This document shows, in pieces, positions 16,621 to 22,319 of a DNA stretch of 28,243 bases. A program made the translations under genes and the position numbers. The notes under the pieces are model-generated. The model was not told the origin of the DNA. It saw only the letters and a program-made list of their open reading frames with translations, and made no database searches. Within the stretch, counting starts at the first letter, position 1, and each line of letters opens with the position of its first letter. This DNA is from a virus: positions 1 to 28,243 of IMG/VR virus record IMGVR_UViG_3300025128_000240; one strand, 5' to 3'.

Positions 16621-16875
16621 TATTAGGGTGTTTTTATAGGGCCAATTGTCAACATTTTTAAAATTAATTTCAATTATTTTGCAATTAAGTAGATATTTAA
16701 GTAGAATCCTACAAAAAATTGCTAAAAAAATTTAATACGGGGTAGCTTAATGTTACATTAGAGAGCTCTGTGTGCATGTGTACGCGGGTTTTTATTAATA
16801 TGTATGGGGGGTTGCATCGTTCCGTCAGAAAGCTGGATCGCCTCAGATGAAGGTGTCGGAGTACCTTCCAAATCG
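16621..16875. other. AT-rich divergent intergenic region
   Basis: A gene-free stretch between the two divergent promoters. Its left part (about 16650-16740) is very AT-rich, with A/T runs and the direct repeat TTAAGTAGA found twice close together at about 16685-16710. A possible hairpin, GAAGGT-8nt-ACCTTC, lies at 16849-16868. Such a layout would suit regulator binding or an origin of replication. Nothing proves it, as no iterons or DnaA-box arrays were recognised. A minus-strand ORF at 16758-17015 covers part of this and the early promoter and is judged spurious. Confidence 0.35.
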
Positions 16876-16902
16876 AAAAAACCCCACAGGTTGCAGGGGT
16901 TT
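16876..16902 (-). terminator. Leftward intrinsic terminator
   Basis: Read on the minus strand, AAACCCC - 10-base loop - GGGGTTT is followed by more T (six T in a row after GGGG). This is a GC-core hairpin with a U-tract, typical of factor-independent termination. It faces left, so it would stop any transcript entering from the early region towards the terminase operon. It thus insulates the leftward promoter downstream of it. On the plus strand no U-tract follows the stem. Confidence 0.6.
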
Positions 16903-16940: not shown

Positions 16941-16969
16941 TTGACAAACCTGCCAAACGTCCGTATAAT
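16941..16969 (+). promoter_or_regulatory. Consensus sigma70 early promoter
   Basis: TTGACA at 16941-16946 and TATAAT at 16964-16969 with exactly 17 bases between: a perfect match to the bacterial vegetative promoter. Transcription would start near 16976 and run right into the early genes. The 5' leader contains a small hairpin, GAGTG-TCG-CACTC, at 17005-17017. It leads to a GGAGA ribosome site before the ATG at 17062. Such a strong host-type promoter is typical of immediate-early phage transcription. Confidence 0.88.
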
Positions 16970-17061
16970 GGGCACCAATGATGATGAATGATACTCTAAT
17001 AAGGGAGTGTCGCACTCATCTCGGGAGAAGTACTATATAGCAGATTAACTGGAGAAAATCA

Positions 17062-17322
17062 ATGGACGCTTTATCTAAAGCTGAGGCTTTGACCGCCTAT
17101 AAAAACGAGCTTTTGGATTTGGTGTGCGCTTGCCTACTCGATGAAGAGGAAATACCCGCTTTGATAGCTGAAAAGCAGGTTGAACTTGGGATTGACATGG
17201 GAAAAGCACAACGCATCAAACAACCGCCTCGAATTTATATGGGTGTCAATGGCAAGCCTAGACCAGCCATGAGTAACTTTGTGGGAAGCTACACCCTACG
17301 GGCCGCCCATGGAATGAGATAG
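17062..17322 (+). CDS. First early protein, unknown
   Basis: An 86-residue protein (MDALSKAEALTAYKNELLDLVCACLLDEEEIPALIAEKQVELGIDMGKAQRIKQPPRIYMGVNGKPRPAMSNFVGSYTLRAAHGMR). It is the first ORF behind the consensus promoter and has a GGAGA ribosome site. The N-terminal two thirds are helical and acidic, the C-terminus is basic and loop-like. No family recognised. First-expressed small phage proteins often target host functions, but nothing here shows what this one does. It is followed by the structured RNA region. Confidence 0.72.
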   Translation: MDALSKAEALTAYKNELLDLVCACLLDEEEIPALIAEKQVELGIDMGKAQRIKQPPRIYMGVNGKPRPAMSNFVGSYTLRAAHGMR

Positions 17323-17334
17323 TGGCAAGATATA

Positions 17335-17843
17335 CAATCCCTTACATGGGGTAGGGGATTGCAATCTAATCACTAGGATAGGGGGTGTGACTCAAAAGAG
17401 ATAACATATTGAATGCTGTGAATAGCGGTTATATCAGTGTGGCCTGATTAGGCCCAGGCCGCACAAATATACTCGTTGTTTGAGTGTACGGTAGTCGCCC
17501 GAATCTGGCGCAGTCGGAAAGTACCGACCTACCGTTAAAGAGCCGGAAAGGCCGCGTGGAGAGATCTGCGGAAAATGTGATTCATGGCACGGACAAGCCA
17601 TGTCTGTGGTTGATGTCAATGAGCCGCTATGCTTGCTGTATTGTGGTTGTGCGGATGACCTTTTTGATTGATGCTACTCATGACATGGTGGAACGGGCGG
17701 ACCTGGGCTGAGCCAGGCCGAACGGTGGGCATCTGCGGGGCAGGCTGACAACCTGACGCCCAGTACGGCACCTCCGGTCATGCTGAACGCGTATAAGTTG
17801 ACAAGCCACTCTGTGGGATACGCCTATTGTAAAGACCTTTTTT
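17335..17843 (+). ncRNA. Candidate large structured non-coding RNA (about 510 nt)
   Basis: No convincing ORF fills this stretch, yet it is dense in stems. (1) An 11-pair hairpin at 17335-17345/17351-17361 (one G-U). (2) GTGTGGCCTG/CAGGCCGCAC at 17437-17446/17455-17464. (3) A seven-pair stem at 17468-17474/17482-17488. (4) A three-way junction: CGGTAG/CTACCG (17489-17494/17529-17534) encloses CGCC/GGCG (17496-17499/17507-17510) and GTCGG/CCGAC (17513-17517/17524-17528). (5) CATGGC/GCCATG at 17583-17588/17597-17602. (6) CCTGG/CCAGG at 17702-17706/17713-17717. (7) GGGC/GCCC with an inner CAGG/CCTG at 17727-17761. (8) A 3' stem running into TTTTTT. It is visibly richer in G and C than the flanking genes. 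Large phage RNAs such as GOLLD and ROOL have similar size and setting, but I cannot match it to either from memory. Confidence 0.68.
17776..17843 (+). terminator. 3' stem with U-tract ending the structured RNA
   Basis: GGTC (17776-17779) pairs with GACC (17834-17837). Inside, GCGTAT (17789-17794) pairs with ATACGC (17818-17823) and a small CCAC-TCT-GTGG hairpin sits at the tip (17806-17816). Six T follow directly (17838-17843). The U-tract after a closing stem is terminator-like, but the closing stem is only four pairs with unpaired bases within. It may therefore be a leaky stop or a processed 3' end. Downstream early genes would need read-through. Confidence 0.5.
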
Positions 17844-17852
17844 CCTTATGGG

Positions 17853-17868
17853 AACAGAATGTTCTGTT
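17853..17868. promoter_or_regulatory. Inverted repeat upstream of the second early gene
   Basis: AACAGAA-TG-TTCTGTT is a 7-base perfect inverted repeat with a 2-base centre, 31 bases before the ATG at 17899. As DNA it looks like a dimeric repressor operator. As RNA it can form GGAACAG-AATGTT-CTGTTTC, a hairpin just ahead of the ribosome site. It does not match the E. coli LexA box or the GAAC-N4-GTTC type (spacing is 5 here). No cognate regulator is known from this window. Confidence 0.4.
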
Positions 17869-17898
17869 TCATTCAACCCTTAAGGGAGATTTAGTCCT

Positions 17899-18441
17899 AT
17901 GAGTAAAATTGGTGATAATTCAATCATGAAAGCGGATGAGTTGCGCGATGCGATTGATGCAAGATGTGATGTGCTCAAGACTTCCATTGATGACATCCAG
18001 GAAGTGGCTATCCACGCTGTTCTTCATGTGGTGGAGCACGGTGATACCACGTTTGGTACTCGCATTTTTCAGAAGTTACCTAAAGGTGTAAAGAGCAATG
18101 ACTTCAAGAACTGGTTTGAGGATCACGCAGGATGTGAGTGGGATAAGGCGTCCTTCAAATTGGTGAAAGGCAAGGCTCAGACCAGCAACTTCATCAAATT
18201 GGGTGCATCTCTGTGGTATAAGTACAAAAGAGATACGTCCTCCCAGGCGTATGATTTTGCCAAAGCCTGTAGTAATCTGGCTAAGGCCATGGTAAATGAA
18301 AAGAAGTCTCCATACGTCAATGGTGCGGACTCAACCCAACAGGATGCTGTTTTCCAGTTGATTTCAGCTATGAATGCTGCGGGTTTTTCTGTTAATCCGT
18401 CTTTTGATTCCGTTGTAACCAAAGATGCTGTATCATTCTAA
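17899..18441 (+). CDS. Early phage protein, unknown (LPKG...WF motif family)
   Basis: A 180-residue soluble protein: MSKIGDNSIMKADELRDAIDARCDVLKTSIDDIQEVAIHAVLHVVEHGDTTFGTRIFQKLPKGVKSNDFKNWFEDHAGCEW... The segment from EVAIHAVLHVVEHGDTT to LPKG-x-x-x-N-x-x-x-x-W-F recurs in early-region proteins of diverse phages. I know no function for it. An Ala/Lys-rich helical middle (SQAYDFAKACSNLAKAMVNEKKSPY) and a Ser-rich end complete it. The start has AAGGGAG 11 bases upstream. It stands between the structured RNA and a run of tiny genes. Confidence 0.8.
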   Translation: MSKIGDNSIMKADELRDAIDARCDVLKTSIDDIQEVAIHAVLHVVEHGDTTFGTRIFQKLPKGVKSNDFKNWFEDHAGCEWDKASFKLVKGKAQTSNFIKLGASLWYKYKRDTSSQAYDFAKACSNLAKAMVNEKKSPYVNGADSTQQDAVFQLISAMNAAGFSVNPSFDSVVTKDAVSF

Positions 18442-18447
18442 TAATAA

Positions 18448-18475
18448 GGGGGCAACCTAGCAATAGGCTGTTCCC
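18448..18475 (+). promoter_or_regulatory. GNRA-capped intergenic hairpin
   Basis: GGGGGCAACCTA - GCAA - TAGGCTGTTCCC folds into 11 pairs (two G-U) with a single A-C mismatch, capped by a GCAA (GNRA-type) tetraloop. It fills the gap between two early genes, 22 bases ahead of the ATG at 18498. No U-tract follows, so it is not a standard terminator. It may protect mRNA ends or tune translation of the next gene. Confidence 0.5.
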
Positions 18476-18497
18476 ATAAGGGAAAAAGGAGATAAGA

Positions 18498-21314: not shown

Positions 21315-22319
21315 ATGACAGTAAAGGTCTCAGTAAGTGAGTTACCTTCCTATTACGACTCTTGCCTGGGACTGCCTATGCTGGTCACTGGTGAATCTGG
21401 TATTGGGAAGACTGAAATCACTAAGCAATGGACTGCATCCAGGTCTCTTGCCTGTGTAGATGTTAGGGCTTCTCAGCTAGATCCGAGTGATGTAAAGGGA
21501 GTTCCATATAGGGAGGGATTAGCATCACGCTGGGCTATTCCTGACTTTCTACCTCAAGTAGACAGAGATGGGGAAGAAGGTGTATTAGTATTAGATGAAT
21601 ATTTAGACGGTGATGAGGCTGTTTTCTCTGCCTTTCAACAGTTAATACTGGAGAGAAGGTTAGGGGATTACATTTTTCCAGACAAGTGGATGATCATTGC
21701 GTTAGGTAATAAGAAGGAACATGGTGGTGTTAACCGTGGTCTTTCTTCTGCACAACAAGATAGATTCGTTCACTTAGAGGCATCACTGGATCATGATAGT
21801 CTAAAAAGTTACTTCATCAAGAAAGGGATTAGTCCGTTAATCACATCATTTATACATACTCATCCAGACCTGGCGCATAAAAGGCCAGAGCGTGGTTCTG
21901 GCGAATGGGCGTGGCCAACCCCAAGGTCTTATGAAAGAATTGATTCTATTCTTAAGAAAGATCCAGACAAATCTATGAGATTTAATTTGTTTGCTGGTTT
22001 GATTGGAGAGGGTGCGGCAACATCTTTGGATGCACACATTAAATTTGCATCTGATGTTCCAGATCCGCTTGATTGTATCAAAAGCCCTGAGTCAACAAGA
22101 GTTCCAGAGAATGCTAGTGCTAAGTATGCTATTACTTGTAGCTTAGCCAGGTATTCCAAGCCTAAAAACTTTGCAAATGTGATAAAATATGTAGATCGTT
22201 TGGGTGCAGAGTTCTCTACGTTGTTAATGATGGAGTCTAAGAACATAACTCCAGAGTTAATAGAGACTGATGCGTTTGCTGATTGGGCTATGGAACATTC
22301 AGATGTATTACTAGGATAG
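21315..22319 (+). CDS. CobS/MoxR-like AAA+ ATPase
   Basis: A 334-residue ATPase of the AAA_5/MoxR class: Walker A GESGIGKT (residues 26-33), Walker B LVLDEY (91-96) and a sensor-1-like segment IALGN (128-132). The segment SQLDPSDVKGVPYREGLASRWAIPDFLP matches the MoxR/CobS pattern in which a substrate-loop region follows Walker A. The C-terminal 150 residues are helical with PTPRSYERIDSIL, typical of the lid subdomain. MoxR-type ATPases work as rings that remodel a partner with a VWA domain. Such a partner is encoded two genes on. A close relative group is the CobS-like proteins of marine phages. The substrate is unknown. Confidence 0.87.
   Translation: MTVKVSVSELPSYYDSCLGLPMLVTGESGIGKTEITKQWTASRSLACVDVRASQLDPSDVKGVPYREGLASRWAIPDFLPQVDRDGEEGVLVLDEYLDGDEAVFSAFQQLILERRLGDYIFPDKWMIIALGNKKEHGGVNRGLSSAQQDRFVHLEASLDHDSLKSYFIKKGISPLITSFIHTHPDLAHKRPERGSGEWAWPTPRSYERIDSILKKDPDKSMRFNLFAGLIGEGAATSLDAHIKFASDVPDPLDCIKSPESTRVPENASAKYAITCSLARYSKPKNFANVIKYVDRLGAEFSTLLMMESKNITPELIETDAFADWAMEHSDVLLG

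Follow-up and report, generated by a model that had tools for sequence, protein, structure and literature searches.

What kind of element fills the space between the first and second early genes of an uncultured phage, and how is it connected with the gene that follows it? The question was addressed in the window, i.e. the whole stretch of 28,243 bases that was analyzed, which is an IMG/VR-type virus record and whose numbering is used throughout. Terminase and tail genes read leftward in the window. From 17062 onward, the genes read rightward and include those for an ATPase, an HNH-type protein, a methyltransferase, and a primase/helicase. The rightward ATPase gene (21315-22319) is ~30% identical to N4 gp24-like proteins of N4-like phages. 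Comparison of the early region DNA with a phage collection matched no similar record, and a search of bacterial genomes for a relative of the primase found none. The start of the early region is laid out as follows.

16941-16969, + strand: early promoter, TTGACA-17-TATAAT, agreeing with the sigma-70 consensus at 12/12 positions
16990-17011, + strand: 5' hairpin of the transcript, AAUAAG in the loop, then GC (GUCGC motif), from comparison with L021 and L009
17062-17322, + strand: g1, the first early gene, 86 amino acids, no family (gene calling and family searches)
17320-17898, + strand: predicted structured non-coding RNA region, the whole conserved element (folding, conservation, and compensatory changes)
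17899-18441, + strand: g2, the bracketed gene, 180 amino acids, phrog_1448 family (profile/family match)

The RNA thus lies just after the first early gene, as the original prediction had it, and behind the consensus promoter. Promoter-like sequences were also read by eye at the equivalent place in relatives. The stem of the 5' hairpin is GAUACUC/GAGUGUC in the window, GCGGCAC/GUGUCGC in L021, and GACAUC/GGUGUC in L009. Several relatives are missing g1, and their RNA begins directly 3' of the 5' hairpin.

Searches with the g1 or g2 protein alone yielded no relatives. Relatives were gathered with the primase and ATPase as anchors, and g2 was then found in a subset of them by iterative profile search. 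Members of the family are metagenomic sequences throughout and were assigned to group A (the window, L024 with the near-identical L178/L179, and L002), group B (L107, L112, L128, and L186), group C (L124 with near copies, L188, and L189), group D (L009), group E (L017), group F (L021), and group G (L031/L032). In each of these, g2 is preceded by ~350-800 nt in which no gene is annotated or convincing; the contig of L017 begins inside this stretch. L021 is the other end of the 59.5-kb L006 contig. Because the ends of this contig overlap by ~140 nt, it is probably a relative's genome in complete and circularly permuted form. A separate observation concerns the gap between the divergent operons, where ~85 bp at 16793-16877 (TTTTTATTWATATGTATGGGGG...CTGGATCG...GGAGTACCTTCC) are conserved in L024, L112, L124, L128, L188, and L031 and more weakly in L021 and L009. 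A consensus fold was absent from this segment, which is possibly an origin, a packaging site, or a leftward control element.

The RNA had been placed at 17335-17843. RNA does occupy these positions, but its extent had been underestimated: the conserved element begins at the g1 stop codon, where hairpin P1 has its base (17320), and extends as far as the start of g2 (17898). It is richer in G+C than its surroundings, as had been claimed (0.50-0.56 versus 0.43-0.47). The claim that no convincing ORF is present also held, as the open frames are without family match and neither L024 nor L002 preserves them. Neither a 75-amino acid GTG frame (17484-17711) nor a CxxC-bearing open frame (17495-17668) matched a protein family; the latter resembles a zinc ribbon and was rejected as coding and ascribed to chance. 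A conserved reading frame among the relatives was looked for and was not present. A kept frame is ruled out because the indels in the RNA are of 1 and 4 nt, the gaps between the window and L024 being 1, 1, 1, 1, 1, 4, 4, 1, and 1 nt. The RNA of the window is 91-96% identical to that of L024, its nearest relative, versus 73% for g2. The RNA of L002 is 71% identical to that of the window, and the g2 DNA of L002 is beyond alignment. Two blocks, 17572-17637 and 17782-17894, are retained in L002, which has an additional hairpin of 22 nt. Comparison with relatives marked two further sites within the element.

17388-17413, + strand: variable spot, at which ~238 nt are inserted in L024, L178, and L179
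17606-17640, + strand: most conserved internal block (CTGTGGTTGATGTCAATGAGCCGCTATGCTTGC region)

The insert lies inside the RNA at L024 3617-3854 and contains an 82-codon open frame (KIFVDAIEHDNYPEIDCELL...) with no clear start codon. This frame had no match in Pfam, and the insert has the look of a coding fragment hosted by the structured RNA.

Folding and comparison with relatives identified the following helices.

17320-17375, + strand: hairpin P1, pairing UAGUGG/UCACUA, AGAU/AUCU, and CAAUCCCUUAC/GUAGGGGAUUG
17583-17593, + strand: 5' strand of a long-range helix, pairing with 17773-17782
17773-17782, + strand: 3' strand of the same helix, pairing with 17583-17593
17789-17823, + strand: conserved stem GCGUA/UACGC (17789-17793/17819-17823) around the hairpin CCAC/GUGG, with one compensated pair

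Against dinucleotide shuffles, the folding energy of 17323-17860 gave z -3.6 and was reached by 0/100 shuffles; 17335-17843 gave z -2.9. The reverse strand of the region was also below its shuffles (z -2.3), and the RNAs of several relatives folded no better than shuffles (L021, z -0.8; L031, z +0.4). The 5' foot of P1 is the g1 stop codon in the window, L002, L107, L112, L128, and L186; the stop codon of L024 is six bases further upstream. The geometry of P1 recurs with unrelated sequence in L002, L107, L112, L128, L186, and L009. The long-range helix is formed by CAUGGCACGGA/UCCGGUCAUG in the window, CGUGUCACGGA/UCCGGACACG in L024, and CGUUGU-CGGA/ACUGACGACG in L002; 29/30 cells are paired over these three sequences, and four pairs have changed on both sides.

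For groups A, B, and C, the consensus folds had better energies than those of column-shuffled alignments (z -2.6, -5.1, and -4.5, respectively; 0/40 in each case), each alignment consisting of three or four sequences only. Pairs changed on both sides exceeded every shuffle in group B (28; maximum 25) and group C (23; maximum 19). In group A, which includes the window, the 21 covarying pairs were within the range of the shuffles (mean 17, maximum 27). In slid controls, the paired fraction fell from 0.91-0.94 to ~0.4. When the substitutions of L024 were placed on the predicted fold of the window, 16 were disruptive versus 22.5 expected (p ~ 0.02), a result that lends the fold weak support. This single-sequence fold is clearly wrong in places. 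It does contain the clean three-way junction described in the original prediction, but conservation of the junction was not upheld, as two pairs of its outer stem (17488-17493/17530-17535) are broken in L024 and no compensating change restores them. Judged by comparison of sequences, the designation of 17320-17898 as a structured non-coding RNA is well supported, as is the long-range stem around g2 described below.

Does the element belong to a known RNA family? Searches of the window and eight relatives gave no Rfam match at the gathering threshold, and hits at E <= 10 were noise only. The same sequences had no match to the core of a group I or group II intron or of a ribozyme. A tRNA search of the window was negative. 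The suggested kinship with GOLLD or ROOL is unsupported because no Rfam model matched, and the window is without tRNAs. What stands of the initial description is a large structured phage RNA, possibly of a new class, that forms, in physical terms, the leader of the gene starting at 17899; the likeness to GOLLD/ROOL and the terminator-like end found no support. GOLLD and ROOL are large, structured, phage-encoded RNAs with variable peripheral regions (Rfam; Nature 2025, PMC12286853), are often found near tRNA islands, and form a homo-oligomeric cage in cryo-EM. They are the nearest kind, and the RNA described here is likewise large, structured, and encoded by a phage, with a variable periphery. 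It differs in heading an early operon, in having no tRNA island, and in the complementary arms on either side of the gene that follows. Across the seven groups, k-mers or motifs shared in the RNA body were not above shuffles. Homology between the groups therefore rests on synteny and position, on architecture, and on these arms, which were located as follows.

17836-17857, + strand: arm A, CCTTTTTTCCTTATGGGAACAG, containing six T, complementary to arm C over 22 contiguous positions
17863-17887, + strand: arm B, which can pair locally with A, covering the g2 ribosome-binding site and the bases immediately 5' of it
18448-18475, + strand: hairpin D:C after g2, with a GNRA tetraloop (GCAA, 18460-18463)
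18468-18489, + strand: arm C, CTGTTCCCATAAGGGAAAAAGG, beyond g2, complementary to arm A

The original prediction had closed the RNA with a stem plus six T and taken this for a terminator-like end at 17843. The T run exists (17838-17843), but it is the 5' part of arm A, which pairs with 18468-18489, and terminator prediction scored no site nearby. An intrinsic terminator at 17843 was accordingly rejected.

In the window, the A:C pairing comprises 52 hydrogen bonds; 0/200 shuffles reached this value, and the best had 31. Each of the 13 related metagenomic phages, which together represent the seven sequence groups, had a contiguous A:C helix of 13-24 bp, a value reached by at most 1/200 shuffles in each case. 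The shortest contiguous stem noted was that of L031 (13 bp). The arms differ in sequence, being CTGTAGGTTGATTGAGGGATTAC/GTGATCCCTCAATCAACCTGCGG in L021/L006 and ATGTTATTTGTGAGAATCACACT/AGTGTGATTCTCACAGATAACAT in L124. Their spacing is nearly fixed: in the 13 phages, A ends 31-42 nt before the g2 start, and C starts 24-29 nt after the stop. The complete ribosome-binding site, the ORF, and the stop codon of g2 all fall inside the A:C loop, and a long, nearly perfect duplex of the kind expected of an RNase III stalk brackets the segment in 13/13 phages. Other genes of the window, tested for flanking arms, had at most 12 bp. With local hairpins melted, pairing of the flanks gained -8 to -20 kcal/mol, but some shuffles matched this gain in several phages (including L128, L124, and L031); thus, contiguous length and not energy discriminates. 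RNAduplex energies of flanks were noisy, two other genes scoring low through scattered pairs, and contiguous helix length was therefore used as the measure. The A:B and A:C pairings are predicted to be mutually exclusive. The hairpin of arm C carries a GNRA loop in 12/13 relatives.

The g2 product itself gave little indication of function. An AlphaFold2 model (pLDDT 73) predicted a mostly helical fold, which matched no solved structure, and the homologues are all uncharacterized phage proteins. The phrog_1448 family is an early gene in many Autographiviridae. Cultured Melnykvirinae have a first early gene, an unannotated gap of 430-580 nt, and a phrog_1448 gene (gaps in L196, 302-865; L197, 202-748; L193, 266-799; and in L202-L205 and L208). 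These gaps resemble the window in gene order, and some of them fold better than shuffles, with considerable variation (GY3, z -3.8; 6937, z -0.65). They are unlike the window RNA in having promoter-like sequences inside, no sequence similarity to it, and, in those tested, no A:C stem. The g2 homologues of seven cultured phages (Paso, LKA1, Vibrio G1, GY3, BUCT609, MA13, and 6937) were without an A:C stem, and no usable consensus emerged when the Melnykvirinae gaps were aligned. We regard kinship of these gaps with the window RNA as a lead.

Our preferred explanation, held tentatively and at a little less than an even chance, is that the element is an early-operon leader RNA and that the stem around g2 is an rRNA-like processing stem, with RNase III as the probable nuclease. 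The strong host-type promoter would give a single transcript carrying the 5' hairpin, the optional g1, the folded RNA, g2, and more early genes. Initially, the transcript would fold into the local hairpins A:B and D:C, which would rearrange after C has been transcribed. Arms A and C would then pair over 13-24 bp and close off g2 as a loop, like the stalk of an rRNA precursor. RNase III, assumed to be the host enzyme and specific for double strands, would cleave the A:C stem, so that the upstream RNA would end at a defined 3' position and g2 would be freed as a self-contained mRNA. The RNA body possibly has g2 as its partner or acts as a free RNA. Processing is preferred because the feature shared by the phages is a stem with a translatable g2 in its loop, i.e. 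the geometry of an rRNA stalk.

Other readings account for parts of these data. Mutual exclusion of A:B and A:C would also suit a translational switch in which A:B hides the g2 ribosome-binding site until C is made, the large RNA serving as sensor or timer. Predicted accessibility of the site in group A agrees with this, rising from 0.01-0.08 to ~0.35 when C occupies A. The rise is small in group B, however, and there is none in groups C (0.55 to 0.32), D (0.08 to 0.01), E (0.18 to 0.18), F (0.27 to 0.28), and G (0.18 to 0.17), yet every group retains the A:C stem; we consider a switch unlikely. We give the same low standing to the idea that the 5' hairpin, P1, the body, A, and C form one RNA with g1, the L024 insert, and g2 in peripheral loops, similar to ORFs in intron loops, its skeleton organizing or protecting the early mRNA or acting on the host. 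The optional g1 separating the 5' hairpin from the body, the 238 nt with an open frame within the body of L024, the extra hairpin domains in L128 and L186, and the GNRA loop 3' of g2, which suggests tertiary docking, all fit such a skeleton. Against it, Rfam intron and ribozyme families did not match, exon joining is not apparent, and the docking receptor is only putative.

A leader causing antitermination or modifying RNA polymerase in the manner of put would be well placed where the long early operon begins, with a strong promoter upstream, but the length of the RNA and the absence of a common motif make it improbable. About as improbable is an effect at the DNA level, with the arms as recombination or binding sites, g2 as an exchangeable cassette, and the RNA structure as incidental. 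It would explain why g2 differs greatly among phages next to a downstream flank that is 96-98% identical in L024 and L002; but the GNRA tetraloops in 12/13 and the G-U pairs kept in the arms indicate RNA, and recombination between inverted arms would flip g2, the orientation of which is constant in all relatives seen. Decayed coding sequence that folds by chance hardly deserves consideration. The CxxC-like frame is protein-like in look, but it lacks a family match, and the DNA is conserved above the neighboring genes, with non-triplet indels and compensatory changes.

Complementary flanks of rRNA precursors (the stalks) and at RNase III sites of T7 early mRNA pair over ~20 bp. The arms around g2 are similar in pairing length and, as in T7, would belong to an early polycistronic phage mRNA. 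They differ in bracketing a single protein gene and in forming a long-range stem with competing hairpins. The put sites of phage HK022 consist of two short hairpins; they too act in an early-operon leader RNA, and nothing like their two-hairpin arrangement was seen here. A literature search did not find the arrangement of RNA plus bracketed gene described. The element may represent a new class, which we consider possible but rather doubtful. Its members would combine an RNA body that diverges quickly with a protein gene closed off by a long-range stem that is conserved, as a scaffold with genes in its loops, and would occur in at least seven uncultured phage lineages.

To our knowledge, only a few large structured RNAs have been described in phages, and their functions are unknown. 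The one described here has a defined operon position, one adjoining gene family, and a precise conserved stem, from which cleavage sites and rescue mutants can be predicted. Such placement and such a stem therefore make the purpose of large phage RNAs directly testable. The phrog_1448 gene behind long unannotated gaps in cultured enterobacterial phages may offer a laboratory system. The locus would thus provide a new kind of phage RNA, matching no described RNA family, that is open to laboratory test.
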